Assembly (NCBI GenBank): GCA_964023275.1
Contig: OZ029914.1
Span: 10,733,561-10,797,560, forward strand
From: Norana najaformis
Taxonomy: Eukaryota > Annelida > Clitellata > Crassiclitellata > Hormogastridae
DNA length: 64,000 nucleotides
Direction: 5' to 3'
Both the position numbers and the translations under genes were made by a program. Below the pieces are notes generated by a model that did no database searches, was not told the DNA's origin, and was given only the letters and a program-made list of their open reading frames with translations. This document shows positions 21,716-64,000 of the stretch, in pieces (the first letter of the stretch is position 1; each line of letters starts with the position of its first letter).

Positions 21716-21961
21716 CTAATGTTGAATAAACCTCGACATACATGGCCTCCACTGTACACGATTTGTTCCCTATCGAACACGTAGCTTCGCACCGATACGA
21801 TCCAACTTTATTCGGTTTTAAAGTATGATCATCAGACACTGTGATCGAATCGTCGCCACTGAACCATTTCCATTTGTAACTGCATGATTGGCTGGTGTTC
21901 GCGATACAAATGACTTCGTCATACATTGTCATTTGAACTGTTACGTTGCTGCTGAAGATAT
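21716..21961 (-). CDS. Ig-like domain exon (membrane-proximal)
   Basis: A 246-nt phase 1-1 exon between 'ttcaatcag' and 'gtaagag'. It encodes one Ig-like fold: VICIANTSQSCSYKWKWFSG (B strand Cys, C strand Trp), then DDHTLKPNKVGSYRCEAT (the Y-x-C of the F strand), and ends VEAMYVEVYSTL. Phase 1-1 single-exon Ig domains are typical of the superfamily and can be shuffled freely. A potential N-glycosylation site (NVT) lies near its start, another at NTS and another at NKS. It joins in frame to the transmembrane exon at 21317. Confidence 0.85.
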
Positions 21962-27602: not shown

Positions 27603-27927
27603 AAACAGTTTCTCATAATGAACGAATTGATGTAACACGCAGAGCACTTGACGAAACATCATGCATTCATAGTTGAGTCTATACTTTGTATTAAATCATC
27701 CCACTGGAAACTGGCAGTTCATTATCAAAACATTATACACACAGCAAACTACTGTCAAAAATGCTCTCTTACATTATGCTGCATAAAATGGTCTAAAATT
27801 AAGCAACTGTTGCTCTCTTCTACCAAACTTTGATTTTCCATTGGTTTCTTTAGCCTTCCTTCACTAGTTGCCGCAATCTTTACTTCAACACCCTTCTCAT
27901 GATGGTGATGGATGCGTGGTCAGATTA

Positions 27928-30556: not shown

Positions 30557-30777
30557 TAATCATTCGTTCATTTAAGCATTTTTATTGCGCCCATTTGGGA
30601 TGAAGTTGCCACAGATGCAACTATACATCAGCCCCATAATTCCGGAAAAGATTTATTAAATTTCTTAAATAAAAGCGGCAAAGCCTTTGCTTGTAAGTTC
30701 TTAGAGTGATTTTATACACTTTAGATTACTTATGAAATAAAAATACACATTAACTGGGTTTCAAGTTAATATAATAT

Positions 30778-31676: not shown

Positions 31677-31959
31677 CTGAAAATAAAGACAAATCCAATA
31701 AATAATTTAAAATATTTCCATGCATTGTTGTCATTATATTATTGCAGAATTCAAAATTCGCAATAAAACCGAGTAAATACGGTGGTTGTGATGATAATCG
31801 CGAGACAGACACAGACAAACGAAGGCAGAGAAACTGAAACACACAGTGAAAAGGAGACGGAGAGAAAGCAATAGCAGTCGAGAGGCAGAACCAGCAATAT
31901 AAAGAGACATTCACAGATGTCGAGCGAAACACACAGCTACCAGGAGAAGAGCAGAGAGG

Positions 31960-32700
31960 TATAAATCAGGTCTAAACTTAAGACTCATTTCTTCCAACTT
32001 GCTTACCCACAGTATAGCCTGGCTTCTGGTTTCTCTGACCTGTTTGAATTCGATCAGGTTTCTCCAAAGGTTTATGATTTCTGACGGCGATTTTGACCTG
32101 AAGCGACCATCGACTGATGCCTTGGGCATCATGTTAACGGCGCTATAGAAGTTTTTAGATTAAATTGCAGAAATACTATTTTCAAGTGCATTTTTAAGGC
32201 CATCATCTGGAGAGTATGGAACGCCGTAACATTCTGAAATAAACTGAAACAAAATAATCCCTACAAATTATATCATTACTTAATGGTCATAGGAACATGA
32301 AATAAAGTTATGAAATAAAGTACAAAACACAGTTTCATCGACGATAGGAATGTTTTGATGATTTTTACATTAAAACGTGATCTTTGTGCAAAAAAACACC
32401 CTCATAATCGTTGGTCTACTTTTAGAATGATACAAAAATGAAATGGTCAATAGGGAAATCGGTTTCAATAGTCGTATGCATAAGAGACGCCATCATCCAC
32501 TTGACAGTCTCTGTATAAACGCTATTCCGCAATCTTTTTAAATTTCATTACCAATTTGCTTAGAGTAAAATTGACCTTAGCACTGTGTTTATTACTATTA
32601 ATTAATTAGAAAGTCTAGAGCGCCGTTGTCTAACGCACAAGGCGTCAAGCGAAGGCGCCCTTTTTAAGGCCAACTTAACTGCATTAAAACGAACACACAA
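31960..32700. other. No gene seen
   Basis: Intron-like sequence upstream of the NHL exon. The open frame at 31911-32132 (minus) lacks a matching donor and overlaps sequence shared with the intron of copy A. Confidence 0.4.
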
Positions 32701-36437: not shown

Positions 36438-36653
36438 CAGAGGGTTGTTCGTGGTCATTGTTTTGTAAATCTACAGAAAAAAGAGGATTCGGGTATGATG
36501 TCTGTTGGGAATAGCTGATATCCACAGTTGCTGTTTGTTGAGCCATTTCAGGCATCAGGATGTCATTACTGAGAAGCTCAGCGTGACTCGAGGCTGTTGG
36601 TTGTTGACCACCAACATCACACAAAGCTGCTGTCTCGGCATTAGGTAAAAAGC
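36438..36653 (-). CDS. Linker exon after the CARDs
   Basis: A 216-nt phase 1-1 exon (acceptor 'tctggtatag', donor 'gtaagtg') encoding 72 residues: GFLPNAETAALCDVGGQQPT, then MPEMAQQTATVDISYSQQTS and ending NNDHEQPS. It is polar and low in complexity, with no recognisable fold, so it is probably a flexible linker. It joins in frame to the CARD exon above (38503). Joined to the phase-1 NHL exon at 31676 it would read EQPS-DKLPSAYESD without a frame break. Confidence 0.7.
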
Positions 36654-36801: not shown

Positions 36802-37239
36802 TCAACAGAGGTGCTTCCGACCCGAAAAAGTAAAATCACTGTTGAACAGTACAGTCTTCAGGCGCCTGCGGAACATTAAGTGGGGGAGAGAAAGGAGCTC
36901 TAGTCGCAATTCTTGAGGGAGACGATTCCAGCAAGTGGGACCAACATAGGCAAAGCTTCGAGACTGGGCCGCAGCCGTACGCATGCGAGGGACAAACAGG
37001 AGATCTTGAGTGGCCGAGCGAAGGTTGCTTCGGCCCGGCAACGAGGAGACCAAAGTGCAGAAGTCAATGAGGTAAAGGGGAGCAGAGCCAAGAACACAAT
37101 TGCGCATGAGGGAGAGGATCTTAAAGTGGACACGCTGCTGGACGGGGAGCCAGTGAAGAGTGTCACGAATATAAGACGAGATGTGGCCATACTTTGGAAT
37201 GCCCCCTATGAGATGAGCAGCAGAGTAGAGCACAGATAA
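36802..37239 (-). pseudogene. L2/CR1-like LINE C-terminal fragment
   Basis: The minus-strand frame reads SYIRDTLHWLPVQQRVHFKI, then LRSATQDLLFVPRMRT and FAYVGPTCWNRLPQELRLEL and ends RRRLKTVLF. This is the conserved 'LHWLPV..R..FK...LRS.....L.VPR....G.R.F...AP..WN.LP' C-terminus of L2/CR1-type LINEs. One long open frame survives, so it is younger than its neighbours. It sits in the intron between the linker exon and the second CARD exon. Confidence 0.88.
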
Positions 37240-38502: not shown

Positions 38503-38811
38503 CTTCTGCAGCTTCTTCCAAAATTTTCAGAATATGATCTTGGTTTAATTCCCGAAGAGATTCGATGGTTTGCTTGTAATGCTCAATGCTGCCCTGTCTA
38601 AGTATTTCCAGCATGGCTTCGTTTTTCTCTGAGTTGGTTGGTTTGGACAAAATGAATTCGTGTTGCCTCTTGTTTATCACGCCTTTGAAGTGTAATTTGT
38701 AGCTCAAGTATGATGCGTCCAGACCATCAATCAGGGCTTGACGATTTGAAATTAGCTTTCCGAGTTCATTTTCTGACATTGGCCAGACATCACCATATGC
38801 CTCTTGGTATT
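38503..38811 (-). CDS. Second CARD domain exon
   Basis: A 309-nt phase 1-1 exon (acceptor 'gatgtgtttag', donor 'gtacgt') encoding EYQEAYGDVWPMSENELGKL, then the six-helix CARD: NRQALIDGLDASYLSYKLHF, GVINKRQHEFILSKPTNSEK, NEAMLEILRQGSIEHYKQTI and NQDHILKILEEA. The pattern (R..L...L....L...L...GV+....E.I......+......L..L...G...Y...I..L......+L...L) is the death-fold CARD signature. CARDs pair with one another to build signalling assemblies such as caspase- or MAVS-type platforms. It follows the first CARD directly, with frames joining as DGE-YQEA. Confidence 0.85.
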
Positions 38812-40109: not shown

Positions 40110-40394
40110 CCCCATCTGAATTCAAGTAGTTGGCCAAATGCATCTGCCTGGCTTCTGCTAGAGCCGCAATCAGTTTGTCGGCCTTGTTTTTGTCAATGAT
40201 GTAATTCAGTAATTTCTGATTTCTGTCTTCGACCGTTGATGGCATAGATCGAATCTGGTGAAACTCCGCCATGGTGAGATCTTTACGGGGGAGCATGACA
40301 TCCAGAAGACCAAAATCTGGATCTATTCTGTCCACCAGGAAGTCCATATGTGCCTTGAGCAGGCTTATTTGCCACTCCTCTTGAATCATGTTTT
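40110..40394 (-). CDS. First CARD domain exon
   Basis: A 285-nt exon, phase 1 at both ends (acceptor 'tctactttaag', donor 'gtaagc'). It encodes ENMIQEEWQISLLKAHMDFL, VDRIDPDFGLLDVMLPRKDL, TMAEFHQIRSMPSTVEDRNQ, KLLNYIIDKNKADKLIAALA and QMHLANYLNSDG. Helix pattern and spacing (L+.H...LV..I.....L.D.L......+...E...I.......+R...LL..I........LI..L.......LA..L) match CARDs of the NOD/RIG-I-like class. It is about 30% shorter in its N-terminal lead than the second CARD exon, and the sequences are clearly diverged from each other. Confidence 0.85.
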
Positions 40395-40551: not shown

Positions 40552-40603
40552 CGCTTCTTGTAAGAACAGTATCACTCAGATCCGTCCTTAAACTGTTGTT
40601 TAT
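40552..40603 (-). CDS. Micro-exon before the CARDs
   Basis: A 52-nt exon with strong borders ('accattttcag' acceptor, 'gtgagt' donor). It starts in phase 0, reads INNSLRTDLSDTVLTRS and ends in phase 1, exactly what the CARD exon at 40394 requires. It was found by splice-site reading and is far too short for an open-frame call. Its phase-0 start matches the end of the exon at 43603. Confidence 0.7.
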
Positions 40604-41272
40604 CTGAAAATGGTGAAGAATAAAACATTGCCTTACAAATTAGAGTTTTATAAAGCATTCCTTTAGCACAAAGTATGACAACCTTTTTAAAACGTTATAC
40701 TTGCTCTTTAATAACCCATTTAAAATCCATTAAAAAAATAAGAACATAGTTGGTCCCTACTAGTCAATCAACAAAGTTAATGAAACTCAACGAACGAACG
40801 AGTATCATATTGGTTCCTGTTTCATTACAAACACTGGCCAACAGAAAAAAATTTTTTTCTTGTTGCCTTCGGTTTTAGACCTGTTCTTGGGGTAATTTTG
40901 GGCGCTGATTCAGAAAATGTCATTGGATTGAGTGCATCAGGTCTAGTTTCTGAGATATCGTCGATTTTGTAAAGAAAACCCAGTCCACTCTTTAAACGAT
41001 GTCTTTGGCAAAACTAAAATGTCATAATAAGCTTTATTTATGGCTAATTATAATTCTTGCTGATTCGTATAATGCCTACATCCTTATAATGTAAAATCAG
41101 CATATCTTGCCGCGTGCTGAGATATTGCTGATTGAACGAAATAACTATTCCGTAGCCTACAGCTTACTCAGCACTAAATTCATGGCCTCATTTAGAATTT
41201 ATTTGTGCTTATACAGCGTTTCATGGTTTCGAACTATGTAAATAGATTATGCTGAAGTCAGCATTTATAGCC

Positions 41273-41311
41273 TATATAAACCGCCTCCTGAAAGCTAGAG
41301 CAGCCGCAGTC
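41273..41311 (+). promoter_or_regulatory. Transposase core promoter
   Basis: TATATAAA at 41273-41280 is followed about 30 bp later by CAGTC (41307-41311), an initiator-like start. All three copies keep it. In copy 1 the TATA is at 3384-3390, right at the deletion junction. Confidence 0.55.
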
Positions 41312-41436
41312 GTCTAAGGGCATATTAAGAGTTGGTCGCAAGAACAATCTGTGAATGTGAGCATTAAATAACTACATGTTCTTACTATTTTTTAGGTTAA
41401 TCATTTAATTCCTCAGATGCGAACATCCTTAAGGTT

Positions 41437-43140
41437 ATGGCTACTTCCAGACGGAGCTGCATTAACCATCCAGACATATTCTGCTACATTTGTGGGGAAT
41501 ACACACTAAAAGCAAACAGGAAACCGATTTCTGAGTTTGTAAAAAGAGCATATGTAGGTTATTTTGGTGTCAAACTTGGAGATCAAGATAAGCAATGGGC
41601 TCCTCATACAGTATGCAAAACTTGTATTGAACAATTGCGCCACTGGACAACTGGAAAGAGAAGCTGCCTGAAATTTGGTGTACCGATGGTTTGGAGGGAA
41701 CAGATAAACCACTTCGACGACTGTTACTTTTGTATGGTTAATATCATAGGCATCAATCGAAATAATCGTCACAAGTTGTCTTACCCTGATATACCTTCAG
41801 CCAGGAGACCTGTTCCGCATTCGGATATTGTACCAGTTCCACCTTTTCGCGAACTACCTCAGCTCTCAGACGATGACACTTGCATGTCCAATATCGGACA
41901 AGATGACGAAAGTGAAGAAAGTGGGGGCAGTGACAGTGATTTCCAATCAACTTCACACAGTGAACGTTTTGACCAAAAAGAGTTGAGTGATCTGATCAGG
42001 GACTTAAATCTTTCCAAAGAGTCCTCTGAATTGCTTGCGTCCAGACTAAAGGAAAAGAATGCACTTCAGCCTGGAACGAAAATTACAATTTATAGAAACA
42101 GAGAAAAGGATTTGCTGCCATTCTTTACCGAAGACAACAACCTAGTATTCTGTAATGACATCAGCAACTTATTGAAGAAAATTGGTCTGTCGGATTACAG
42201 CCCAGATGAGTGGCGTCTTTTTATCGACAGTTCAAAACGTAGTCTGAAATGTGTGCTTTTAAATAACGGCAACAAATTTGGTTCTATTCCAATCGGTCAC
42301 TCCACCAGGATGAAAGAAGAGTACAATGCCATCTCTTTAGTACTGGAAAAGATAAAATACAAAGAACATCAATGGGTAATTTGTGTAGACTTGAAGATGG
42401 TAAATTTCCTCCTTGGTCAACAAAGTGGCTACACAAAGTATCCCTGCTTTTTGTGTCTTTGGGACAGTAGAGCCAAGCATGAACATTGGACAAGAAAAGA
42501 TTGGCCTTCGAGGAAAGACATGGTGGTTGGAGCTCAAAATGTAATCAAGGAATCTTTGGTGGCACGAGATAGGATCATACTGCCACCACTACATATAAAG
42601 CTAGGTCTGATGAAACAATTTGTCAGGGCTTTGAATAAAGAAGGTTCATGCTTCGAATACATAGTACACAAGTTACCAGGAATTACAATGGAAAAATTGA
42701 AGGCTGGAATCTTCGATGGTCCACAGATCAGGCAACTTATGAATGACCCACTTTTCATACCATCAATGAATGAAATCGAATCTTGTGCCTGGTCTTCCTT
42801 TGTTCTTGTAACTAAAAATTTTCTTGGCAACAAGAAGGCAGACAATTATGCACAACTAGTAGAGGATATGCTTCTTCATTTCAACAAGCTTGGCTGCAAC
42901 ATGAGCATTTAAGTCCATTATCTCCACAGTCACTTAGATCGCTTTCCAGACAATCTTGGTGACTTCAGCGAAGAGCAAGGTGAAAGATTTCACCAAGACA
43001 TCAAAACAATGGAAAATCGATATCAAGGAAGATGGGATGCACACATGATGGCAGACTATTGCTGGAATATTATGCGCGATTGTTCCGGCAGATGCCACAC
43101 TCGAAAATCGTACAAAAGGAGCTTCTTCGGTGTCGAATGA
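41437..43140 (+). pseudogene. CMC-like transposase, best-preserved copy (one stop)
   Basis: Open for 491 codons from ATG 41437 to a TAA at 42910-42912, where copies 1 and 2 have AAA. The frame then continues to a natural TGA at 43138-43140, about 567 residues in all. N-terminal zinc-ligand pairs are C16-x2-C19, C60-x2-C63 and C96-x2-C99, resembling ZAD-type DNA-binding modules. An acidic Ser-rich linker follows. Candidate DDE residues are D in LFIDSSKRSL, D in VICVDLKMVN, and E in SEEQGERFHQ beyond the stop. YPCFLCLWDS between the second D and the E gives the C-x2-C seen in the CMC group. The catalytic assignment is inferred, not proven. Confidence 0.8.
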
Positions 43141-43252
43141 CTTGAAATTTTTATAACAAACTTGTTCTGTTTGGTATCATATAAGTACAGTTTCAGGTAC
43201 TATCATTTTCTTTTAAGTATTTGTATTATTATGTTTATTTAGTGTATCACAT

Positions 43253-43258
43253 AATAAA
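43253..43258 (+). terminator. Poly(A) signal of the transposon
   Basis: AATAAA lies about 115 bp after the transposase stop and before the right terminus. It is conserved in all three copies (near 5370 in copy 1). Confidence 0.55.
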
Positions 43259-43602
43259 TTGAGCACTACATAATTATAGCTATAGCCTTATGTTTTATGG
43301 GCGAGCAGAGGCAAGGACTGGTATATGGCATAATGTTCTATATCTCGAAAACTAGACCTGCTGGGAGAAAACTGGTGCCTTTTCTGGAATCAGCAGGTCA
43401 AATATACCCAGAAACAGTTCTAACATTTGAGGCAACAAATTATGTGTTGGCCAGTGAAATCAATATCCTCTATTGCAAAGAAACTTGCATATTTCCACTT
43501 CATTCCACTGCGCATCTCAGCCAAAACATTAATCGTTAGGGTGATGTACCATACTAGAACATAGGCAAAAGCCATTCTAATCTGCCATAGGCATATGCTT
43601 AC

Positions 43603-43781
43603 TCTATCTTGTTGCCAAGGAAAAATAGGTGCATTCGCAGAAGTTGAATTTACATCACTGCACTGTTGTGCACTGGCTTGTAATCCCAAAGGACCAGAAG
43701 CATAATTCATCACAGAAAACAAGCTGCTAGTATTTAAGGGTTGTCCAAAACTGGTACTCTGCCCAGATATCCCCTGAAGAC
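43603..43781 (-). CDS. Ser/Gln-rich exon after the 52-residue repeats
   Basis: A 179-nt exon (acceptor 'aaattttttag', donor 'gtaagc') that starts in phase 1 and ends in phase 0. It encodes GLQGISGQSTSFGQPLNTSS, LFSVMNYASGPLGLQASAQQ, CSDVNSTSANAPIFPWQQDR. Rich in Ser, Gln, Asn and Gly, it is likely disordered. It receives the frame from the repeat exon at 45358 and hands phase 0 to the micro-exon at 40603. Confidence 0.7.
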
Positions 43782-44322
43782 CTAAAAAATTTAAAAGAAT
43801 GCAGAACATAATAACATGCTAACAGCAGTCTTACACAATAAACAAGTATGCTGACACAGTCAAATGTTAAAATCCACTGAACAGAATTTACCTTTAGCTT
43901 GAACCAAAGCATCAAATCGATCATACTCTTTAATTTGTAGAAAAGAAGCAAAAACCCAGGCTACCATTTGAGGGAAAGACTCTCAAATTAATGTTACAAC
44001 ACATCAATCATCTATGCAAGCTTGATATTGACTCAAATGCCTCACGCTTGTCTTTCTGCAGTTGATACCTAGACGAAGCCCGTAAACTGATCCTCTCTAA
44101 ACATTGCAGGCACTGAATTCTGTGGACACTTATAACATCACAATCACTCCAAATCATGACGAGACCGAACTGAAAGCATGTTCCCAATGGCATTGCTAAC
44201 ATAAGGTTGTGGCAGCTTCAGAGGGTCACTAGATCGTGTGTTACGAACAGGAACATGACAATCAATAAATGATCGGAGATAGGCAGGTTGCTGGGTATGG
44301 AGAAGTCGGTAGGTAATTATAG

Positions 44323-44595
44323 CTATTTAAAAATCAATGCGTCTCGAAACCGGCAGTGAAGTTGGGAGAGAATGCCAGCAGATGAAAGGTTGAAATTAGG
44401 ACGGACAAGGTGTGCTGCCAAGTTCTGTACTCGCTGTAATTTTCTGATATTATAAGACGGGATATGGAAAAGGATATGATTGCCATAGTCAAGTCTAGAC
44501 TGGACAAGAGCAACGGCGATCGCACCAGCCATATTATCAGTGAGAACCAACCGATGGAGAATCGATTGCGATATCCACATAAGGTGGTGCGGCAC
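44323..44595 (-). pseudogene. LINE fragment in array unit 1 (repeated in each unit)
   Basis: The minus-strand frame holds DNMAGAIAVALVQSRLDYGN, IRKLQRVQNLAAHLVRPNFN and ILSQLHCRF, the L2/CR1 thumb-region text (A..IA.ALV.SRLDYGN....L..L+.L.RVQN.AAR). Equivalent copies are at 46006-46278, 47687-47959 and 49370-49642. The array unit starts at the edge of this fragment, so the LINE was in place before amplification. Confidence 0.85.
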
Positions 44596-44790
44596 GGTAG
44601 CCTATGTGGGGCAAGGTAACCTATTGGAGAGAGTGCTCGGCTTGTAATGCAGAGTACCGGTTCGAAACTTAACTGAGACGGTTACTATGTATGGACCTTC
44701 AGCAAGTTCTTCACTCACAACTGATCGCCGCCATGGATTGATGCTAAGTTATTAGATAGTGGCGCCTAATAAATGCAGAAATAATAAGGT
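44583..44790 (+). mobile_element. tRNA-derived SINE in array unit 1 (repeated in each unit)
   Basis: An A-box-like 'tagcctatgtgg' near 44599 and the B box ggttcgaaac at 44659-44668 lie at tRNA-like spacing, followed by a non-tRNA body ending in A/T-rich repeats. Copies of the B box are at 46340-46349, 48022-48031 and 49705-49714. This family has a different body from the SINEs at 967 and 37770. Confidence 0.65.
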
Positions 44791-45357
44791 TTGATAGAGC
44801 AGAATAACAGTTAAATGCAGAATAGAAGACAATTACAAAACAGAACTAAACTTGCAGAATAAGAGTGAAGAATTTGTCCAGTAAGAGTAAAATGACTTAA
44901 ACCATTAAGTTAAACCAACTTGAACAAATATAAATATACATACTTTAAGATCCATTTCATTGTAATTCAGAAGTTGTGCAATTAAGATAACACTTTACTT
45001 AAACCAACCTCAGAGCTAGATTTTGTCTAGTGCCACAATCTTGCTTTTATTACCAGAACAAAAGGAGAGTCCCCTTAAGTGCAAGCAGATAAAGTATTAA
45101 AACTAAGAATGTCACCATCACCTTTTCTACAAGTTTATAATAATGATACTACTAATAATAGTAGTAATAATTATAATAAAGTCTACAACCGTGTCGGAAT
45201 TTTGAATTGTAGGCCTACCACGGAAAACAGCCCCGAAACCTGGAATTTACTGCTCCTAGCAAATCTTCATATGGAACTCACTAATTCATATTATACTTAA
45301 AATTTCAAACGGCATCAATCAAGCTTCTTTAAAGTGCTGTAAGAAAGATATACCTAC

Positions 45358-45449
45358 CAACAGACATGGGTTGTACAGTTTTTGTTTGATTTCTTAATTC
45401 TTCCATGCCACCCATATCGTTAGCCACGAAACTATTTGCATCGGCATAT
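45358..45449 (-). CDS. Repeat 4, second exon
   Basis: A 92-nt exon between 'tgcag' and 'gtaggt' encoding YADANSFVANDMGGMEELRN then QTKTVQPMSV. It begins in phase 2 and ends in phase 1. Its end hands phase 1 to the Ser/Gln-rich exon at 43781. The translated sequence equals that of the other three second exons. Confidence 0.75.
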
Positions 45450-45788
45450 CTGCAAAAGGTATAACACCTATTGCGTTAAATTAAATGTTTAATTTAATTG
45501 CGCATTGCGTATCGGAGAAAACAGAAGAAAGTCTGCAAGTCGTATGAAGTAAGATAAGGTGAACACTCACTCATCACATGTCTCCATCATTATTAGAGGT
45601 TAATTAAAGGATCAAACATACATGTCACCTTTACTTGTTGGGCTATTTAACCTAATCTAAGGATGTCTATTGAGCCACTGTAATATCAATGGTTACTTCC
45701 TACGGAAGACAATTTCAAATTAACTTTAAGACCAATGAAAACTTTTTGAGACAGCAAAATGAGAAAACACTTCAAAAGACTTTCTTAC

Positions 45789-45852
45789 GTTGTCAGTTCA
45801 CATTTGTTTTCATTGTCAGGTGGATACTTTCTCTTCTTTGGAGGTTTGCATT
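45789..45852 (-). CDS. Repeat 4, first exon (NLS-like)
   Basis: A 64-nt exon with acceptor 'tatttctag' and donor 'gtaag'. It completes the codon left by the preceding phase-1 exon (G+AA) and encodes ECKPPKKRKYPPDNENKCEL, then TT. PPKKRK is a classic monopartite nuclear-localisation pattern. It joins the 92-nt exon in frame, for a total of 156 nt. Confidence 0.75.
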
Positions 45853-47038
45853 CTAGAAATAAGCAAGGTCTTCGACCGTTAATTAATAACGTATTAGTGA
45901 AGCTTTAATGAATCCTTATCACTGTGTAATCAATTTACAAATAAACAATAAATGATCGGAGATAGGCAGGTTGCTGGGTATGGAGAAGTCGGTAGGTAAT
46001 TGTAGTTATTTTAAAACCAATGCGTCTCGAAACCGGCAGTGAAGTTGGGAGAGAATGCCAGCAGATGAAAGGTTGAAATTAGGACGGACAAGGTGTGCTG
46101 CCAAGTTCTGTACTCGCTGTAATTTTCTGATATTATGAGACGGGATATGGAAAAGGATAGGATTGCCATAGTCAAGTCTAGACTGGACAAGAGCAACGGC
46201 GATCGCACCAGTCGTATTATCAGTGAGAACCAACCGATGGAGAATCGATTGCGATATCCACATAAGGTGGTGAGGCACGGTAGCCTATGTGGGGCAAGGT
46301 AACCTATTGGAGAGTGCTCGGCTTGTAATGCAGAGTACCGGTTCGAAACTTAACTGAGACGGTTACTATGTATGGACCTTCAGCAAGTTCTTCACTCACA
46401 ACTGATCGCCGCCATGGATTGATGCTAAGTTATTAGATAGTGGCGCCTAATAAATGCAGAAATAATAAGGTTTGATAGAGCAGAATAACAGTTAAATGCA
46501 GAATAGAAGACAATTACAAAACAGAACTAAACTTGCAGAATAAGAGTGAAGAATTTGTCCAGTAAGAGTAAAATGACTTAAACCATTAAGTTAAACCAAC
46601 TTGAACAAATATAAATATACATACTTTAAGATCCATTTCATTGTAATTCAGAAGTTGTGCAATTAAGATAACACTTTACTTAAACCAACCTCAGAGCTAG
46701 ATTTTGTCTAGTGCCACAATCTTGCTTTTATTACCAGAACAAAAGGAGAGTTCCCTTAAGTGCAAGCAGATAAAGTATTAAAACTAAGAATGTCACCATC
46801 ACCTTTTCTACAAGTTTATAATAATGATACTACCAATAATAGTAGTAATAATTATAATAAAGTCTACAACCGTGTCGGAATTTTGAATTGTAGGCCTACC
46901 ACGGAAAACAGCCCCGCAACCTGGAATTTACTGCTCCTAGCAAATCTTCATATGGAACTCACTAATTCATATTATACTTAAAATTTCAAACGGCATCAAT
47001 CAAGCTTCTTTAAAGTGCTGTAAGAAAGATATACCTAC

Positions 47039-47130
47039 CAACAGACATGGGTTGTACAGTTTTTGTTTGATTTCTTAATTCTTCCATGCCACCCATATCG
47101 TTAGCCACGAAACTATTTGCATCGGCATAT
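47039..47130 (-). CDS. Repeat 3, second exon
   Basis: Identical in translation to the other second exons. Borders are 'tgcag' and 'gtaggt', and its phase-1 end feeds the first exon of the next unit at 45852. Confidence 0.75.
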
Positions 47131-47469
47131 CTGCATAAGGTATAACACCTATTGCGTTAAATTAAATGTTTAATTTAATTGCGCATTGCGTATCGGAGAA
47201 AACAGAAGAAAGTCTGCAAGTCGTATGAAGTAAGATAAGGTGAACACTCACTCATCACATATCTCCATCATTATTAGAGGTTAATTAAAGGATCAAACAT
47301 ACATGTCACCTTTACTTGTTGGGCTATTTAACCTAATCTAAGGATGTCTATTGAGCCACTGTAATATCAATGGTTACTTCCTACGGAAGACAATTTCAAA
47401 TTAACTTTAAGACCAATGAAAACTTTTTGAGACAGCAAAATGAGAAAACACTTCAAAAGACTTTCTTAC

Positions 47470-47533
47470 GTTGTCAGTTCACATTTGTTTTCATTGTCAG
47501 GTGGATACTTTCTCTTCTTTGGAGGTTTGCATT
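47470..47533 (-). CDS. Repeat 3, first exon (NLS-like)
   Basis: Same as the exon at 45789, with identical translation (CKPPKKRKYPPDNENKCELT). Confidence 0.75.
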
Positions 47534-48721
47534 CTAGAAATAAGCAAGGTCTTCGACCGTTAATTAATAACGTATTAGTGAAGCTTTAATGAATCCTTAT
47601 CACTGTGTAATCAATTTACAAATAAACAATAAATGATCGGAGATAGGCAGGTTGCTGGGTATGGAGAAGTCGGTAGGTAATTGTAGCTATTTTAAAACCA
47701 ATGCGTCTCGAAACCGGCAGTGAAGTTGGGAGAGAATGCCAGCAGATGAAAGGTTGAAATTAGGACGGACAAGGTGTGCTGCCAAGTTCTGTACCCGCTG
47801 TAAATTTCTGATATTATAAGACGGGATATGGAAAAGGATAGGATTGCCATAGTCAAGTCTAGACTGGACAAGAGCAACGGCGATCGCACCAGTCGTATTA
47901 TCAGTGAGAACCAACCGATGGAGAATCGATTGCGATATCCACATAAGGTGGTGAGGCACGGTAGCCTATGTGGGGCAAGGTAACCTATTGGAGAGAGTGC
48001 TCGGCTTGTAACGTAGAGTACCGGTTCGAAACTTAACTGAGACGGTTACTATGTATGGACCTTCAGCAAGTTCTTCACTCACAACTGATCGCCGCCATGG
48101 ATTGATGCTAAGTTATTAGATAGTGGCGCCTAATAAATGCAGAAATAATAAGGTTTGATAGAGCAGAATAACAGTTAAATGCAGAATAGAAGACAATTAC
48201 AAAACAGAACTAAACTTGCAGAATAAGAGTGAAGAATTTGTCCAGAAAGAGTAAAATGACTTAAACCATTAAGTTAAACCAACTTGAACAAATATAAATA
48301 TACATACTTTAAGATCCATTTCATTGTAATTCAGAAGTTGTGCAATTAAGATAACACTTTACTTAAACCAACCTCAGAGCTAGATTTTGTCTAGTGCCAC
48401 AATCTTGCTTTTATAACCAGAACAAAAGGAGAGTTCCCTTAAGTGCAAGCAGATAAAGTATTAAAACTAAGAATGTCACCATCACCTTTTCTACAAGTTT
48501 ATAATAATGATACTACTAATAATAGTAGTAATAATTATAATAAAGTCTACAACCGTGTCGGAATTTTGAATTGTAGGCCTACCACGGAAAACAGCCCCGA
48601 AACCTGGAATTTACTGCTCCTAGCAAATCTTCATATGGAACTCACTAATTCATATTATACTTAAAATTTCAAACGGCATCAATCAAGCTTCTTTAAAGTG
48701 CTGTAAGAAAGATATACCTAC

Positions 48722-48813
48722 CAACAGACATGGGTTGTACAGTTTTTGTTTGATTTCTTAATTCTTCCATGCCACCCATATCGTTAGCCACGAAACTATT
48801 TGCATCGGCATAT
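48722..48813 (-). CDS. Repeat 2, second exon
   Basis: Same exon and borders as the others. Translation unchanged. Confidence 0.75.
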
Positions 48814-49152
48814 CTGCATAAGGTATAACACCTATTGCGTTAAATTAAATGTTTAATTTAATTGCGCATTGCGTATCGGAGAAAACAGAAGAAAGTCTGC
48901 AAGTCGTATGAAGTAAGATAAGGTGAACACTCACTCATCACATATCTCCATCATTATTAGAGGTTAATTAAAGGATCAAACATACATGTCACCTTTACTT
49001 GTTGGGCTATTTAACCTAATCTAAGGATGTCTATTGAGCCACTGTAATATCAATGGTTACTTCCTACGGAAGACAATTTCAAATTAACTTTAAGACCAAT
49101 GAAAACTTTTTGAGACAGCAAAATGAGAAAACACTTCAAAAGACTTTCTTAC

Positions 49153-49216
49153 GTTGTCAGTTCACATTTGTTTTCATTGTCAGGTGGATACTTTCTCTTC
49201 TTTGGAGGTTTGCATT
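49153..49216 (-). CDS. Repeat 2, first exon (NLS-like)
   Basis: Same exon and borders as the other first exons. PPKKRKYPP conserved. Confidence 0.75.
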
Positions 49217-50404
49217 CTAGAAATAAGCAAGGTCTTCGACCGTTAATTAATAACGTATTAGTGAAGCTTTAATGAATCCTTATCACTGTGTAATCAATTT
49301 ACAAATAAACAATAAATGATCGGAGATAGGCAGGTTGCTGGGTATGGAGAAGTCGGTAGGTAATTGTAGCTATTTTAAAACCAATGCGTCTCGAAACCGG
49401 CAGTGAAGTTGGGAGAGAATGCCAGCAGATGAAAGGTTGAAATTAGGACGGACAAGGTGTGCTGCCAAGTTCTGTACCCGCTGTAAATTTCTGATATTAT
49501 AAGACGGGATATGGAAAAGGATAGGATTGCCATAGTCAAGTCTAGACTGGACAAGAGCAACGGCGATCGCACCAGTCGTATTATCAGTGAGAACCAACCG
49601 ATGGAGAATCGATTGCGATATCCACATAAGGTGGTGAGGCACGGTAGCCTATGTGGGGCAAGGTAACCTATTGGAGAGAGTGCTCGGCTTGTAACGTAGA
49701 GTACCGGTTCGAAACTTAACTGAGACGGTTACTATGTATGGACCTTCAGCAAGTTCTTCACTCACAACTGATCGCCGCCATGGATTGATGCTAAGTTATT
49801 AGATAGTGGCGCCTAATAAATGCAGAAATAATAAGGTTTGATAGAGCAGAATAACAGTTAAATGCAGAATAGAAGACAATTACAAAACAGAACTAAACTT
49901 GCAGAATAAGAGTGAAGAATTTGTCCAGAAAGAGTAAAATGACTTAAACCATTAAGTTAAACCAACTTGAACAAATATAAATATACATACTTTAAGATCC
50001 ATTTCATTGTAATTCAGAAGTTGTGCAATTAAGATAACACTTTACTTAAACCAACCTCAGAGCTAGATTTTGTCTAGTGCCACAATCTTGCTTTTATTAC
50101 CAGAACAAAAGGAGAGTCCCCTTAAGTGCAAGCAGATAAAGTATTAAAACTAAGAATGTCACCATCACCTTTTCTACAAGTTTATAATAATGATACTACT
50201 AATAATAGTAGTAATAATTATAATAAAGTCTACAACCGTGTCGGAATTTTGAATTGTAGGCCTACCACGGAAAACAGCCCCGAAACCTGGAATTTACTGC
50301 TCCTAGCAAATCTTCATATGGAACTCACTAATTCATATTATACTTAAAATTTCAAACGGCATCAATCAAGCTTCTTTAAAGTGCTGTAAGAAAGATATAC
50401 CTAC

Positions 50405-50496
50405 CAACAGACATGGGTTGTACAGTTTTTGTTTGATTTCTTAATTCTTCCATGCCACCCATATCGTTAGCCACGAAACTATTTGCATCGGCATAT
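50405..50496 (-). CDS. Repeat 1, second exon
   Basis: Same translation as the other second exons. It lies at the inner edge of the diverged end of the array. Confidence 0.75.
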
Positions 50497-50835
50497 CTGC
50501 ATAAGGTATAACACCTATTGCGTTAAAATAAATGTTTAATTTAATTGCGCATTGCGTATCGGAGAAAACAGAAGAAAGTCTGCAAGTCGTATGAAGTAAG
50601 ATAAGGTAATCACTCACTCATCACATGTCTCCATCATTATTAGAGGTTAATTAAAGGATCAGACATATATGTCACCTTTACTTGTTGGGCTATTTAACCT
50701 AATCTAAGGATGTCTATTGAGCCACTGTAATATCAATGGTTACTTCCTACGGAAGACAATTTCAAATTAACTTTAAGACCAATGAAAACTTTTTGAGACA
50801 GCAAAATGAGAAAACACTTCAAACGATTTTCTTAC

Positions 50836-50899
50836 GTTGTCAGTTCAAAATTGTTTTCATTGTCAGGTGGAAACTTTCTCTTCTTTGGAGGTTTGCATT
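50836..50899 (-). CDS. Repeat 1, first exon (NLS-like, variant)
   Basis: Same borders and length as the other first exons, but it reads CKPPKKRKFPPDNENNFELT: Phe for Tyr, Asn for Lys and Phe for Cys. The NLS-like core is unchanged. It requires a phase-1 donor upstream; the next recognised exon upstream, at 52369, ends in phase 0. Confidence 0.75.
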
Positions 50900-50989
50900 C
50901 TAGAAATAAGTAAGGTCTTCAACATTTAATTAATAACGTATTGGTGAAGCTATAACAAATCCTTATCAATGTGTAATTAATGTACAGCT

Positions 50990-52365
50990 TTCTTTAATAC
51001 AAACTTCAACCAATGATAATTAAATTTTCAGGAATTTACAGTTAAATATATGCCTTTGCACTTGATAAAGTGCTTAATCATGTAAATGCTGCTCATCTGC
51101 GCTTAGGGAAGAAAAGAGATACAGAATTCACTATCTATGTGTGATTTCTGTTCGAAATAAAATTGCACTCGTATTGAAGACCTTATATTGAATGTTATTC
51201 CTCTAACCATTTTTTCGACCAGATGTCACTTGAATTTTCGAACTCATATCAAGAAGTTCGTTCTCTTTCTACAGAAAAAACTTCAATATTATTATACAAA
51301 ATGATATATTACCGGGAAAAGAAAAGATAGCAATAGAGTGAAGTATTTCTACAGCATTTTTGTGCACCACTTAATACTTTGTTGAACTGCCAACGGTACT
51401 TATGGGCAAAGCCACATTTTTGTACCCTTCTGATTTCAGTCATCATACGGATCATGTAAAAATTTCTTCCAACAGTTAACTGTCATCATGTTCTCCAACT
51501 TTTTTTAAATGCAGAAGACCAGTGTGTTACAGAAGTTGTGACCCTCCAATTGCCATAAACAAATAGATATAATTTAACATATAAATGTCAAATTATATGC
51601 TTGCAAACACCATTCAGCCATTTATAGTACAATAACATTGAAAGTTGTTTTAATAATACAATATCAAAATGTTACATTTTACATCAATACTCATAGGAGT
51701 CACATATATGCATGCACATAATGTTAATAGTATGATCCAGTACAGATACTCGGGACACGCAGCCTCAAGACATTGTAGCTTTGACTCCAGCACGTATGAG
51801 AAGAGACAAGCAAACTCCCAAGACTTTCAGTATTTAGATTTCTAGTTAGCTGTTTATTTCATAATAAACATATGAAACTTCAAACAGCAGTGCATATCTT
51901 ACAATAGGAATATGTTTATTTCATTCTGCAAAGCCAAAGCAGAGTAAATAAAACATTAGAATTTTATATTCTCGAATGTACCCAAACATAAACACAACAT
52001 GAGTATTATGGGTTAAGTCTACTCCATTTAATCCGACTTAATATGCCAAATTTAAGCCTAAAATCTGGAGCTTACTGTCCACAAGTAAGAACAACGGAAA
52101 TGTAGTTTCACATTCTTATACTAACCGGTACCCAAAAGTATTCTCAGCATCTCTTTGTCTCTTGGATGCAACCTGTTATTACATCTTTCATGTAAATGTC
52201 TGTTATAAGAAGTGGTTATGTTGACATAACCACTTTTTAATTTCAAAAATCTACCACATGCCCCAGTGACCAATGACAAAATTAAATAGCTTAAATGTGC
52301 TTACGATGCCACTTTTACATAAGAATTAAAACTCTGTGAGGAAAAACTTCACCCAGAACTATACT
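50990..52365. other. Unresolved intron; one exon expected here
   Basis: Phase requires an exon starting in phase 0 and ending in phase 1 between 52369 and 50899. One candidate, about 52127-52174 on the minus strand after 'aataacag', reads VASKRQRDAENTFGYR, but neither of its possible donors gives the needed phase. Otherwise AT-rich with no recognised feature. Confidence 0.4.
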
Positions 52366-52368
52366 TAC

Positions 52369-52752
52369 TTCTACATAGATGGGTAAAGTGGATGGCTGCT
52401 GATTTAGTGAAACTGACGAGTTTTGGGGTGCAAATAATGACTGGCTGATGTCAGAGGAGGCAACAGTTAGCCAAGGTTGTGAGGCTAATGGTTCATCACT
52501 TTTTTGAGATGCCTGAACGAATGTTAAAATTGGAGTCTCGTGAGTGGTAGGGGGAAGAGGAATAGCAGAATTGAAAGAAACAGAAAAAGGTCCAGAGAAG
52601 CAGCTATTTGTGGGTAGTAGGTCGGGTGCTATGCTCATTTTCGAAGGTGAATGAGGAGAAGGGGTGGATGATACAGAATTCTGAGAATCATCTTCATCGG
52701 CTGAAGGAGAGTTAGGCCGAGGAGAAGGAACAGAACGAGATGCTGGTGCAGC
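52369..52752 (-). CDS. Ser/Pro-rich linker exon
   Basis: A 384-nt phase 0-0 exon between 'tttctgtgacag' and 'gtaagtat', open throughout. It encodes AAPASRSVPSPRPNSPSADE, DDSQNSVSSTPSPHSPSKMS and ends QQPSTLPIYVE. Rich in Ser, Pro and Thr, with many SP/TP dipeptides, it is likely disordered and a phosphorylation target. It was recognised from its borders, because the in-frame Met at codon 39 is not a start. It joins upstream in phase 0 to the exon at 54165. Confidence 0.75.
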
Positions 52753-54164: not shown

Positions 54165-54415
54165 CTGAAGTTTGATGTAAAGACATGATCTGTTGAGTTC
54201 CTCACAGTTGCACAGAGCCACTGCATTGTCTATTTCGGATGGAAGAGGAATAAGGGACGTCTTTGTTTCGGTCCTTGCATTTGTGCATGCCAATCGCCAG
54301 AGAGAAAATTCTTTTCCCTGCAGAGATGGAAACGCATTGCAGAGTGTCTCTCGGAAGTGTGAGGGATCAGAATTCCTCTTCTCAAACGTCACCTTCTTCT
54401 TTTCAAACGTTTCCG
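54165..54415 (-). CDS. Conserved-looking N-terminal domain exon
   Basis: A 251-nt exon (acceptor 'ctttttccag', donor 'gtactg') that starts in phase 1 and ends in phase 0. It encodes PETFEKKKVTFEKRNSDPSH, FRETLCNAFPSLQGKEFSLW, then SLIPLPSEID and SCLYIKLQ. The order (basic lead; S.HFRETL...FP.L....L; a proline segment; YIKLQ) recalls a module found in uncharacterised animal proteins, some annotated as G2/M E3-ligase-like. That resemblance is from memory and weak. Joins are exact on both sides. Confidence 0.6.
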
Positions 54416-55004: not shown

Positions 55005-55128
55005 GGTTATTTCTGAGTTTGTTACTGTCAATTTTCTCCAGTGTGGCATCTTTGACGAGGTTGATCCTGAAAGATTTGAACTTGTGATGCTGACCACGCC
55101 TGGTTGTCACTGGCTTATTCTTAGGCAT
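55005..55128 (-). CDS. First coding exon of the CARD gene (proposed)
   Basis: From an ATG with A at -3 (55126-55128) the exon reads MPKNKPVTTRRGQHHKFKSF, RINLVKDATLEKIDSNKLRN and ends at donor 'gtaagc' in phase 1. The codon completed with the next exon at 54415 is Pro, giving an unbroken frame. It is basic and Lys/Arg-rich. The frame stays open nine codons further, to an ATG at 55155. A 5' UTR exon is possible but unseen. Confidence 0.55.
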
Positions 55129-57639: not shown

Positions 57640-58357
57640 CATGCTCCTGTCTCGGCCAAAACTTGTGTGAGCGTCGGCGCTTTTACCGCCATGGCTCCCA
57701 GGCCCCTGTGTGCAATATCAATCTATCCCATTTACGTTCTTTCTTAAGGTTTAAAGTGAGTCATCATATAATCTGTTTGATAGGAGCTCGTAGCTGGTAT
57801 TTGGCAGATCATTGGCACCTTTGTTTTGGCTGTTTTAATTTGTGTCAAAAGTTGTAGTGCTTATATTCTGAGAGGAAGTGTTTTATCGTTTCCTGAGTGT
57901 TACAGTGGTCACATTTTCCGGTTGGGTGCTGACCTATTTTCTTAGTGTGCAAAGCCGTAACTTTAGTTTAGTTATTAATCTGTCTTTACCCCGTTTTCCG
58001 TATTAAGTGTTAGCTTATTACTTACCGTTGCCTCTAGAGCTTAATAGTGCAATCCTGAAGATTGGCTTTCGCATTCTTTCTGCCATAGAGACATGATAAA
58101 GGCTACTTAACTATACTGCATAATAAGCATCTTTCAGTTCTTTACTTACTTCAAGGTCTAGAGTGGTGTACAGCTGCTTCCTTACACAATGAGTTAGCCT
58201 TCTCAATACCAATTATACACACGGGGCTTGGTATCCATACAAAGGTCACCGTGCAGTTTTGACGATCCAGAGTTTTAAACGCTTTGATGCACGAACACTC
58301 CGTCAGTGGCGCCAGCAAAACGAATGGCAGAGGTGGCACAACCCTGTCGTACGCCAT
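57640..58357 (-). pseudogene. LINE RNase H and zinc-knuckle remnant
   Basis: The minus strand holds FVWIPSPVCIIGIEKANSLC then KEAA, the end of an RNase H domain (usual text W.PSH.GI.GNE.AD.LAKEA), and about 300 bp further on PTGKCDHCNTQETIKHFLSE, the Cys/His-rich tail that follows RNase H in I-clade LINEs. Stops and frameshifts separate them. The right end touches the start of the segmental duplication at 58321. Confidence 0.7.
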
Positions 58358-58649
58358 CTAGCGAGCTAATCGGAAATCAATCGCAAGATGTTCTGAGTCA
58401 GCTAAGTTCATAGGTTGACATCATACTAAAAGTAGGGCCTAAATGTAATTGCACATGTTTTTCTGTAACGAACGCATGGCCTCGTCCCTGCTGATTTTTT
58501 CAGTAAATCGATCGAGTGTTATCTTTCACTACCGCTGCCCGTTTGAACGGGTGGGGCGCCAATTAAGGTCCCTTTTGGCATTCTAGTTTAAGTTTGAAGT
58601 TCCTTGTGAGATGTTAACTAGTTATTGTTTTTTAATAACTGCTAACTGC

Positions 58650-58700
58650 AGTATCCTGAATGTATCCTGTTTGTATCCTGTATGTATCCTGATACTTCGT
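58650..58700. repeat. Tandem 'tgtatcctg(a/t)' repeat
   Basis: About five copies of a 10-bp unit present only in duplication copy 2. Copy 1 has one unit at the same place. Confidence 0.85.
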
Positions 58701-59440
58701 TGCAAGAGTTATGTGCCTTATGCAACAGTAATTACTTGTTTAGTTTTAATCATCCGAGAACATAAAAAATGACAGAAAATAGGTCATTGCAACGCACAGT
58801 AAAATGTGAATGTATAGGTTTTAGTAAGAATGGCTTATAAGGCCTACAGGTAAACCGTGAATCGTAGTCGTAATCTCGAGATTTCTACAGCGCCCAGTGA
58901 AAGCTAAGTCGCGGGAACCAGCTTTTTCACAGGCTCTCAGTCAAAACAAAATCGATAGGCAAGGTGGGTTCTGTTCCAGACGATGCACAGTTGGCATATG
59001 CCATATGATGTATTAAATCGACAGCTCGAATTTAAAAGGGTTAATTTAAATGTACAACTTTTCTATAGCGACCTATGATCGCGCCTCTGCTCAGTTTTCA
59101 ATGAATTAATCGGGTGAGGTCCTTCGCCACCGCTGCCCGTTTAAATGGACGCCACGCTGTGAAGCATTTAGCTATAGGCGCGGGGGCGGTTCCTCTTGGT
59201 TACATGCCGGCGCCCCTCAGACCAGACACGTGCATGGTAGACAGCCAGAATATGGCTCTTCCCCCCCAAACGCAAGCAATCCTGGATCCGCCACTAGGGA
59301 GCCACGCAATTTTAGGTCCCCTTGTATGGACCATGGTATATAGGCCATAAAATCTCTGAAATATAACCACAGTTGGTGCGCTATGGGGTGTGTGATATTC
59401 TAGTGGTTAGCGTGCTTGACTGTCAACCGAGAGATCGGGG

Positions 59441-60097
59441 CAGGCCCGGCCTTAGGGCAAGGCGAACGAGGCAACCGCCTTGGGCCCCGCGCTTTCAGGG
59501 CCCCGCGCTTCTGACTAAACATTTTTACTACTTTTTACTACTATTACGTAACGCTTGTTTTTTTTAACCGACAGTAATTAAGAAAACTTTATAATAAATG
59601 AATTGTTTATTTTCTTTGGGAATTTGTTTATATTGCAGGATAAAAAATAGCGTACTAATAAATTACCTGTCAATGTCATTGATTTAAAACTATGATGTTG
59701 CTAACGATCTGGACTATAACGAACCCATTGCGGATTTTGCTGGCAAGATTTGCTTGTGAGTAGTAAAAACATGTTAGAAGTAGAAGATACAACCCACGAT
59801 AGTCTATAATATTGATAAACAAACTCTCAATTAGCATACCAAAATATTTTAATTATCAACATCTTTTTTGAGTTTTCATATATTCAGTTAAACGAATAAA
59901 ACTGTAATTGTTGCTCTCATAGTAAAAATTTTAGCATTTTTAATTTTGAGGCTGATTTATATTTTGTAAAATTGTATTCAATAACCAATTTAATATGGAT
60001 TTCGCATTATTTTAATATATGTCGAAATGCAATTTTTTGCATGGGTCTCGCTCATCGCTTGCTGCCTCGGGCCCAGCATACTTTAGGGCCGGGCCTG
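59441..60097. mobile_element. hAT-like MITE, copy 2
   Basis: Counterpart of the 1027-1696 element inside the second duplication block, with the same ends and the same imperfect 8-bp flanks (59433-59440 and 60098-60105). The insertion therefore predates the segmental duplication. Confidence 0.8.
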
Positions 60098-63000
60098 GAT
60101 TGGGGTTCGTATCCCTCCCAGGATAGAAATTTGTTTTGAAATTCGGCTTCACTTGTGCACCTAGCCAACTCAGTTATAATGAGTACATTGACCGCATAGT
60201 CAGTGGTAAGGCCAGATGGCTAGGGAGGGGTCTAGCCACAAGTTCTCATATGCCGAAGCTAAGAAAATGAAATCGCTAACAGTTCTACGATGGATGGTGT
60301 TTGAAACTGAAGCGAGAATACAGATAAGGGGAAGAGAAAGAATTAGGATAAGACCTTTAAAAAAAAAGTATTTTTTTCAGTTTTTGTGTGAAAGACTAGT
60401 GCATGAAGCGCAAGAGGTGAAGTGCTGGTGAGTTCTTATGATGAATCAAATTAATAATACAAATGGCGCCTCGTGGGCTGACATAAGAGACTGCTCTTCT
60501 ACTCTTCTTCTGCCATGCGCCAAAACAGCGTGCAAATTAAAACCAGTTAGCATATAAGCCCTTTCATTTGGGTTTAGTCTCGTAACGAGCAAGTTAAATG
60601 TAAATATAGGCCTACACGGTTGTAGGCCTATATAGCGACCAATGGCCTCCACCCTGCTCGTTTTGCAATGACTTACAATGAATCATAAGCAAATCGTTGT
60701 CATATCGATCGAAGGATGTAGACAATTGTTGTGAAAAATATTGACCTCACCTAATAGGCCTATCGATTTTGTTCTGACTGAACGAGTGTGAATAAGCTGG
60801 TTTTTGCGACATAGATTTTTTCCGTGCCGCAAACCGCTCGAAATTACAATTACGATACAATAACGACTGTTGGTGATCGATGTGTATATTGATTTATTGT
60901 GTTATGGTGTTTATATTGATTTATTGTTTCAGTTGATAAGGGTGAGACGATCCGGGTAATTTACGAGGTAGAAAACGGCAATGTCAACTGTCGAAATACT
61001 TACGAGAACGCTAGTGTCTAGAACCCTGGAGTTGAGCATCGCAAGGGGCCCGTGTAAAAATATTAACGGTGCATAATTTTTGCACACCAATCTACTTTCA
61101 ACATGGCCTTGACACGTTTTTCGAGAAGAAGCAGAAAAATATCGACTGAAATCCAAAATAAATTGGAATAATGGATTGAAATAAAAAGTGAGGCTTTACT
61201 CTCATACGAAAGTATTTGACCAGAGCCCACTAAAGAGGTAAATGAAATTTTATTGAAGGGTAGATTTTGGAATTGAGTTGAAGAAAATTGCGTGGGATGG
61301 AGTGTTTTGACATTCTGTTCTTGGCCTCTCGGGTTCTTAAGCGCATTGTGTGTACTTAGCGTTTTAGTAGTAATTAGTTAATTTGAACCATTGTTGAAAT
61401 GAGTTATATGTATTGATGTGGCGCTATTAGAATACCCACTTACCTACGTACATAGTACATGTAATTATACATACAGCTGTTCCCCAGCATCACTGCGCAC
61501 TTCAGAAGTTTGTAAGAAGGGCATTATCGGGTTGGAATGATCAGATTATACAATTGTACTTTATTATGTTGTATACGTGCACACATTGTGCATTGTTCTG
61601 TAATTCTTTATGACTGTGGTTTAATATGAGTTGCAAGGTAAGATAAGGCCAAAATAAACGACCCTGGCACTGGCAACGACGCAATGTCATTAAACGCGGG
61701 ATACTATGAGTGAACTTTGTGGCTGTTAAATCACTGTTGAATTGCCACAGTTTTGCCTGTGATAGCCTTACTGTTGAAAATCCTTTGAAAATCTCCCTTC
61801 AGTTGTTCAAAACATACAGCAAATTATCACAGAGTCCTGAAATTGCTTTGAGAATTGTTATATTTAAATCTCTGATTAACTATTTTGTTATTTACTTTCC
61901 TTTTAGCACCTTTCTAATACAATTTGTTCTTAACTGCAGCCAGTGAAATTGAAATGAATAAGTATCTTCACAACTTTACTCAGCTTACTGTGGTTCTAAG
62001 GAAGATGCATCATTGTAGTGACCACTGTATTCATTATTTTTGTAGATTTTAGGGGAAACTTAAATTAGACTGCAGCTTGTGTATGGCTAGAAATGACTTT
62101 TAAAGCAGTCTTTCTGGATAACTTTTCTCTAATGTTAGGCCTACAATACATTTTGCACATGTTTCCACGTCAGAACTGCATGATTATGATACAAGTACTC
62201 AGATCTTTGGGTGCAGTAACTCACCAAAAACAAAATGGTTGATGCCTGTGAGTAGTTTCTCTTGAAGTGGCTCTATATAAATTTCCAATTACAATTACAG
62301 TTATACCAGGACACAGATGGTCAACTGAAAGGCTGTCAAAATCAAAGAAATTAATGCAGCAGCAATTCAGTAATTGTAAAGACAATCGTAAGCAACAAAA
62401 ATGCACGTAAAGTTGAAACTCTGTGCTTTATCATTTTGCAACCATGTTACCAGTTTACAGACATCTCAGCTGCTGCAGTCAGCTTCACGTCCTTAGGGAT
62501 TGCATGGATTCATGAAATTCAAACTTTGTACGTTCGTGTTATCTTTGTTATAAACACAGGCTAAAATTTATCCATGTGAAAATGTGGGTAGCAAAACATT
62601 TCAGTGTTTGCTGCTGTAATATACTGGAAAAGTGCCCACACCATGTGGATCTAGATTTAATTGAACTGAAGTGAATGGAATTAGTCATTTACTGATGTGT
62701 CATTGGCACATAAGTAATTTCAATGGTCACTGATAGGAAACTTGAGAGGTCAGTTCTAAATGGTCCAGATAACCCTATTAGGAAGGACATCTTCCCTACT
62801 TCTGTTGCATGTCTGAATGGTCAAATGTTTTAGTGTCCAAGTTCTAGCCTCCTGTTGGACAGTCTCTGTGTCTTTGACGCATAGTTACAGATTCTTAAAA
62901 GGTGCTTCATAAATATACTGGTATTTACTTGTAATTGCATAGTGCAGTTGATTGATGTAATCATTAGATAATCATCAGATATAATCACTGGCAGTACATA

Positions 63001-64000
63001 AATAGCATAAAATTACATCATAACTAGGAAATAATTTTTTGCAAAGCTCTTTCATTGTCAGTGCCAGCCAGACTTTTACCTAATTACCTGTGTTTGTATT
63101 GATGTGCTACAATCTTACAATCATTGAGCAGTCTGCTGAAAATGTGTTCAGGGTATCATATAACGTAATATGAGATGTCAAAGGAGACAACTGACCATCC
63201 GTTCTCTTATGTCAAGGCCAACAAAATTTTGTCGCTATTATTTCATATCCGTTCTAAGCTCAAGATGCCAATCATCCTTTCATTAAAAAAGCCTTTTGTG
63301 CACTCAGGTCTTCATCATCTTGTGTAAGCAGCGGTTATCCTTGTTTTAGCACATTTGAAAATCCATACCTGGACACAGACATGAGAAATCTTTCCTTGAA
63401 AATGTGGATCAGATTTCAAATATACATTTTAATGGATATCAGCAACAGGTTTGGAAGCCATTAAAATCTTAGCATTATTGGGTACAGACACTGTGCAAAA
63501 TGAAGGGTTTGAATACAGTGCATCAGATGAAATTGGTAGGTCATTTTCAGCCATGAAATCTATATGCAAAAGGCATCAGGTTATTCAATTCTTTTAATTT
63601 TTTTATTTAAAAGGTGCTTTAATATCTAAGGTGATGGCTGATATTCATAATACCAGGTACAGCAATCAAGGATTTAATATATGCTTTTAGGTGATGATGA
63701 CAGTGATTATGTGATTAAGGATTTAATATATGCTTTTATAATACCTGAAGTGATGGCTGAAATTCATAATACCGGGTATAGTAAATCAATATTTGAAAAA
63801 CTGCTGGAAACTTTTTTCCCATTTAGCACCGATTGTCGATATTGTAGCCCATGTGACAATATCACCGCAGGGTTCAGTCATTGGGTGCTACTGGGTGATG
63901 GAGTGATAGTCAATCAATAGGGAATTCTTGTATTATAAAGAATTATAGAAGACACAATATATAGACGTATACAGTGCAATAAATACCATGGTCATCATCA

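Follow-up and report, generated by a model that had tools for sequence, protein, structure and literature searches.

A tandem array of four frame-neutral two-exon cassettes in an apparent two-CARD gene of the annelid Norana najaformis

Coding repeats that span several exons and differ in copy number are difficult to detect with short reads, and LPA shows that they can matter greatly. The locus described here raises the question of whether a tandem array of predicted exon pairs belongs to a gene, what it would add to the encoded protein and how the array arose. The window, i.e. the whole stretch of DNA analysed, comprises 64,000 nucleotides of the Norana najaformis assembly GCA_964023275.1 (contig OZ029914.1, positions 10,733,561 to 10,797,560). 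Between positions 44264 and 50985 of the window lie four head-to-tail units of ~1,683 bp each, with unit-to-unit identities of 97.97 to 99.40 % over 1,676 aligned columns, far beyond chance. Every one of the four is a genomic tandem unit that contains whole predicted exons, A and B, together with introns, and the cassette exons lie on the minus strand:

44264 to 45946, minus strand: unit U1, transcribed last; on the left it runs on into the original flank
45358 to 45449, minus strand: exon B of U1, 92 nt
45789 to 45852, minus strand: exon A of U1, 64 nt
45947 to 47627, minus strand: unit U2, with a 2-bp deletion in its intronic part
47039 to 47130, minus strand: exon B of U2, 92 nt
47470 to 47533, minus strand: exon A of U2, 64 nt
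47628 to 49310, minus strand: unit U3
48722 to 48813, minus strand: exon B of U3, 92 nt
49153 to 49216, minus strand: exon A of U3, 64 nt, CKPPKKRKYPPDNENKCELTT
49311 to 50985, minus strand: unit U4, transcribed first; at its right edge it has diverged from the other units
50405 to 50496, minus strand: exon B of U4, 92 nt, YADANSFVANDMGGMEELRNQTKTVQPMSV
50836 to 50899, minus strand: exon A of U4, 64 nt, CKPPKKRKFPPDNENNFELTT

Successive A exons are spaced 1683, 1683 and 1681 bp apart, the shorter spacing being due to the 2-bp deletion in U2. The array is missing from the output of Tandem Repeats Finder because the longest period that the program covers is 500. A tblastn search of the window for diverged copies of the unit (E 0.1) matched the array only; since exon A of U4 itself escaped this search, weak copies of the unit could have been overlooked as well. 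A tRNA-like head suspected by eye within the unit was rejected (ARAGORN, 0 genes), and Rfam gave 0 matches at gathering scores.

The sequence-only reading had described the exon pair as a frame-neutral cassette with conserved borders, and both points hold. The exons of 64 and 92 nt add up to 156 nt, a whole number of codons (52), the cassette is entered and left in phase 1 and no unit contains a stop, while the borders AG/A...AAC/GTAAG and AG/A...TTG/GTAGG are intact in four of four units. Either exon alone would shift the frame and only the pair is neutral; such neutrality would be expected among exon-cassette duplications that survive. Conservation of the translation, which had been extended to all four units, applies to U1, U2 and U3, which translate identically, and not to U4, where F for Y and NF for KC leave 49 of 52 residues equal. 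Each cassette reads E-CKPPKKRK-(Y/F)PPDNEN(KC/NF)ELTTYADANSFVANDMGGMEELRNQTKTVQPMSV, with KKRK present in the translations of all four. We take PPKKRK, or KKRK, to be a putative import signal on the grounds of motif, as it fits the classical nuclear localisation signal core K-K/R-X-K/R. An upstream extension of exon A was ruled out by an in-frame TGA at that position in U4.

The cassettes sit within a larger predicted minus-strand gene; the sequence-only reading had given neither the strand nor a gene. Joining of 17 exons, in the order N, E54, PS, X, four A-B pairs, C, D, CARD1, CARD2 and F, gives 815 codons with no stop and with phases matching at each join (55128 to 36438); the exons were hand-picked, and this frame is a model rather than a prediction tested on its own. 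The exons outside the array are:

55005 to 55128, minus strand: exon N, candidate first coding exon (MPKNKPV...), ending in phase 1; further upstream exons are possible
54165 to 54415, minus strand: exon E54, phase 1 to 0, in which no known domain was found
52369 to 52752, minus strand: exon PS, 384 nt, Ser/Pro-rich, phase 0 to 0
51208 to 51268, minus strand: exon X, 61 nt, KENELLDMSSKIQVTSGRKN, phase 0 to 1
43603 to 43781, minus strand: exon C, phase 1 to 0
40552 to 40603, minus strand: exon D, 52 nt, phase 0 to 1
40110 to 40394, minus strand: CARD1 exon, phase 1 to 1
38503 to 38772, minus strand: CARD2 exon, phase 1 to 1
36438 to 36653, minus strand: exon F, phase 1 to 1, beyond which the gene would reach its 3' end

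Exon X is the weakest link of the model. It was included because a change of phase from 0 to 1 is needed upstream of the array; it came second among 68 mechanical candidates ranked on a simple splice score, with a weak donor, and the first-ranked rival has a codon score of -0.18 compared with +0.19 for X. Exon X finishes in phase 1 and exon C begins in phase 1, so the downstream CARDs stay in frame whether no cassette or any whole number of them is included. In the intron that follows exon PS, an inverted repeat was noticed by eye at 52210-52235, its 12-bp arms separated by 2 bp (AAGTGGTTATGT TG ACATAACCACTT).

The host gene apparently encodes a two-CARD signalling protein, as suggested by profile matches to the Pfam CARD family. 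The CARD2 ORF (E 1.2e-06, 28.9 bits) exceeds the curated cut-off of 23.9 and the CARD1 ORF (E 7.7e-05, 23.1 bits) falls just under it; with both CARDs together, the whole single-unit model reaches 42.1 bits (E 9e-11), also above the cut-off. Single-sequence AlphaFold2 models of CARD2 (inspected for the six-helix death fold; pLDDT 57.9, two long helices) and E54 (pLDDT 56.0) were too poor for a fold search. In the PDB, searched by sequence, the CARD1 ORF had no match at E 0.1 and the N-terminal 125 residues none at E 5, and the match of CARD2 to chain 8fre_A (RBL4, E 1.4e-05) was set aside as probably chance, since it covers residues 53-75 only and contains no stretch that passes alone.

Apart from the CARDs, the gene is apparently an orphan. 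A protein database that includes animal proteins was searched by a method that detects relatives only if they have short exact words in common with the query and are 0.55 to 1.75 times as long; there, residues 1-659 of the spliced single-unit model had no homologue at E <= 0.001 (scored for the 7,992 candidates with the most words in common) and residues 262-590 had none at E <= 1 (4,258 candidates). NCBIfam gave no match to the N-terminus and, for two joined units, two weak matches far under the cut-off; the six Pfam matches to two joined units were likewise all under the cut-off. The best of these, PF22506 (E 7.9e-05), was dropped as inflated by the doubled segment, its E value being 0.14 in the single-unit model. 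The predicted protein is like other CARD-containing proteins (PF00619) in its two CARD matches, but differs from them in its Ser/Pro-rich region, its repeats with KKRK and an N-terminal region to which the searches gave no relative.

The explanation that we favour, and consider fairly probable, is that a two-exon cassette in a two-CARD gene was duplicated once and then multiplied by unequal exchange with gene conversion. A single event of illegitimate joining within the introns would have duplicated the pair of 64- and 92-nt exons, unequal exchange would then have multiplied the cassette to four copies, and gene conversion between units would have taken place alongside. With the cassette symmetric, a transcript containing 0 to 4 of them would be in frame, and each one included would add a 52-residue segment with KKRK between the Ser/Pro-rich region and the CARDs. 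The protein may therefore contain several 52-residue repeats, each with a motif like that of a nuclear import signal. The sequence itself shows the anatomy of the array, the phases, the common junction, the diverged edges and the conflicting sites; splicing of the cassettes as drawn, their translation, nuclear import and variation between individuals are inferred.

The origin of the array can be read from its junctions and edges. The three internal junctions are identical (61 bases printed), and their joint is absent from both outer flanks. The sequence to the left of U1 does not match that to the right of U4, and in these flanks homology with the units ends at about 44260 and 50986. Identical internal junctions together with unmatched outer flanks imply that one joint founded the array and has been copied since; judged by these features, the array is founded by one illegitimate duplication. 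The left break, by eye, lies inside a LINE-like remnant, with the flank of U1 continuing into the remnant and the other units cut there. The stretch concerned is open at 44326 to 44601 (minus strand) in U1, with counterparts at 46009-46284, 47690-47965 and 49373-49648, and presumably represents a LINE reverse-transcriptase remnant, which it resembles by eye in its motif; its U3 counterpart matches another such ORF in the window (19 of 53 residues, E 6e-05). The LINE-like ORFs at 8305-8907 and 36802-37233 could be assigned to no family by Pfam.

The sequence-only reading is supported in part: frame neutrality and amplification hold, and the identical junctions, the diverged outer edges and the conflicting sites are all marks of exchange between units, with one rival reading of the edge divergence. 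The array may also still be growing or shrinking and its copy number may vary between individuals, as that reading further proposed. Private changes number 8 in U1, 4 plus the 2-bp deletion in U2, 1 in U3 and 21 in U4, such that 29 of 34 singletons fall in the two end units (P 1.9e-05 versus an even split). Within these, the outer 380 columns of U4 contain 20 of its 21 (P 2e-12) and the outer 334 columns of U1 seven of its eight (P 8e-05), both zones having been chosen after the sites were seen. Going inward, U4 differs from the other units at 7/52, 8/110, 5-6/220, 1-2/260 and 0-3/300 columns. At columns 418 and 927, two of the seven informative sites pair U1 with U4 against U2 with U3, whereas the other five (columns 1116 to 1567) pair U1 with U2 against U3 with U4, so no single tree fits without repeated change. 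Diverged outer edges and conflicting sites are expected from unequal exchange or gene conversion.

Alternatively, little exchange may have occurred since the founding, with the diverged outer part of U4 derived from a different haplotype at that event instead of from age combined with homogenisation. A single crossover between diverged haplotypes could also yield a diverged edge, and founding of this kind would explain part of the edge pattern. However, the stepwise fall of U4 divergence, the outer-edge excess of private changes in both end units and the conflict of informative sites along the unit all argue against it, and we regard this origin, which is compatible with the coding part of the favoured explanation, as possible, if unlikely.

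The coding status of exons A and B gains support from phase-compatible neighbours and codon usage: exons on both sides join in phase and two CARDs lie downstream, which favours A and B as real exons. Codon scores were trained on a small set of 1,060 codons from seven other exons and two NHL-type ORFs. A and B together score +0.113 in U4 and +0.094 in U1, and the six training exons printed score +0.06 to +0.18, values favoured by their own place in the training set. Among 2,000 random stop-free intronic 153-nt windows, which overlap and hence are not independent, the U4 score was reached by none and the U1 score by 0.65 %. Exon A alone scores +0.21 and exon B alone +0.049, close to the null 95 % point of +0.027, under which exon D falls with only +0.014. 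Change is no slower in the exons than elsewhere in the unit (3 of 156 columns compared with 40 of 1,520, the latter including a 2-column gap; P 0.79), nor do the rates differ inside the diverged zone of U4 (P 1.0). In the comparison of synonymous and nonsynonymous changes that the sequence-only reading had suggested, all 3 exon changes proved nonsynonymous, too few to judge selection.

The duplication could also be real and the exons nevertheless dead or mostly skipped, in which case the array would be intronic, the mRNA would omit all or most cassettes and the protein would contain one repeat or none. Omission of every cassette is itself in frame, and the lack of detectable constraint on A and B is in keeping with this reading, but the splice borders intact in all four units, the freedom from stops and frameshifts throughout and a codon usage that resembles that of other exons make it improbable in our judgement. 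Still less credible is an assembly artefact in which two haplotypes with fewer units were placed end to end, giving a true per-allele number below four: unit differences of 0.6 to 2.0 % could equal heterozygosity and duplicated stretches are abundant in the window, but a tandem junction with a sequence of its own has to be present at least once, three junctions share that sequence exactly and every unit has private changes.

On the favoured explanation of a duplicated and exchanged coding cassette, this kind of repeat is already known, and the novelty lies in the present member, whose gene is apparently an orphan. PMC6314250 describes human LPA KIV-2 as an in-frame tandem unit of 5.6 kb that comprises two exons (160 and 182 bp). 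An allele has from 1 to more than 40 copies, each of which codes a kringle domain; the first base of the first triplet of a unit comes from the preceding repeat, i.e. phase 1. The array described here is similarly a tandem genomic unit of two exons, in frame and in phase 1. It differs from KIV-2 in its unit length of 1.68 kb, in its four copies in one assembly and in coding a short basic segment without a known fold in place of a kringle. The triplicate region of human nebulin (NEB), as described in PMC9109913, consists of eight exons in about 10 kb present in three highly similar copies, and is variable in copy number. It shares with our array a block of exons tandemly repeated within one gene with highly similar copies, but comprises eight exons in three copies and belongs to a muscle protein. 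Among the literature matches listed, nothing was found on such an array in a CARD gene, which is not proof of absence.

The array preserves a readable record of its own origin, in the form of one joint followed by exchange. If copy number does vary, a simple length assay could ask whether cassette count alters localisation or signalling. A more far-reaching and rather doubtful proposal is that the gene encodes a nuclear CARD signalling protein in which a heritable, variable cassette count sets import strength or partner valency, with alternative splicing giving a ladder of 0-4 cassettes per allele.

Several other features of the window were noted. A minus-strand ORF at 21600-21998 has a sub-threshold immunoglobulin I-set match (E 0.018). 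Minus-strand ORFs are also found in two paralogous stretches, 14534-15967 and 30566-31962, with a DNA identity of 76 % and proteins 64 % identical over 211 aa; the ORF of the latter has an NHL repeat match and that of the former no NHL match above the cut-off. Three mobile-element-like copies, about 99 % identical, occupy 3383-5576, 27923-30557 and 40831-43461, the last of them lying in the intron between exons C and D and containing a 491-aa ORF with a weak zf-AD match below the cut-off. This ORF has 2,404 related proteins among 5,900 candidates, and those named among the 120 listed include proteins of beetles, Hydra and vertebrates. Finally, 1-8285 recurs at 58321-63973, some 56 to 58 kb away and with order and orientation preserved, in blocks (1-330, 340-2993, 5573-6346 and 6560-8285 of the left end) that match at 90 to 96 %; this is apparently a large tandem segmental duplication whose left copy is interrupted by a mobile element.
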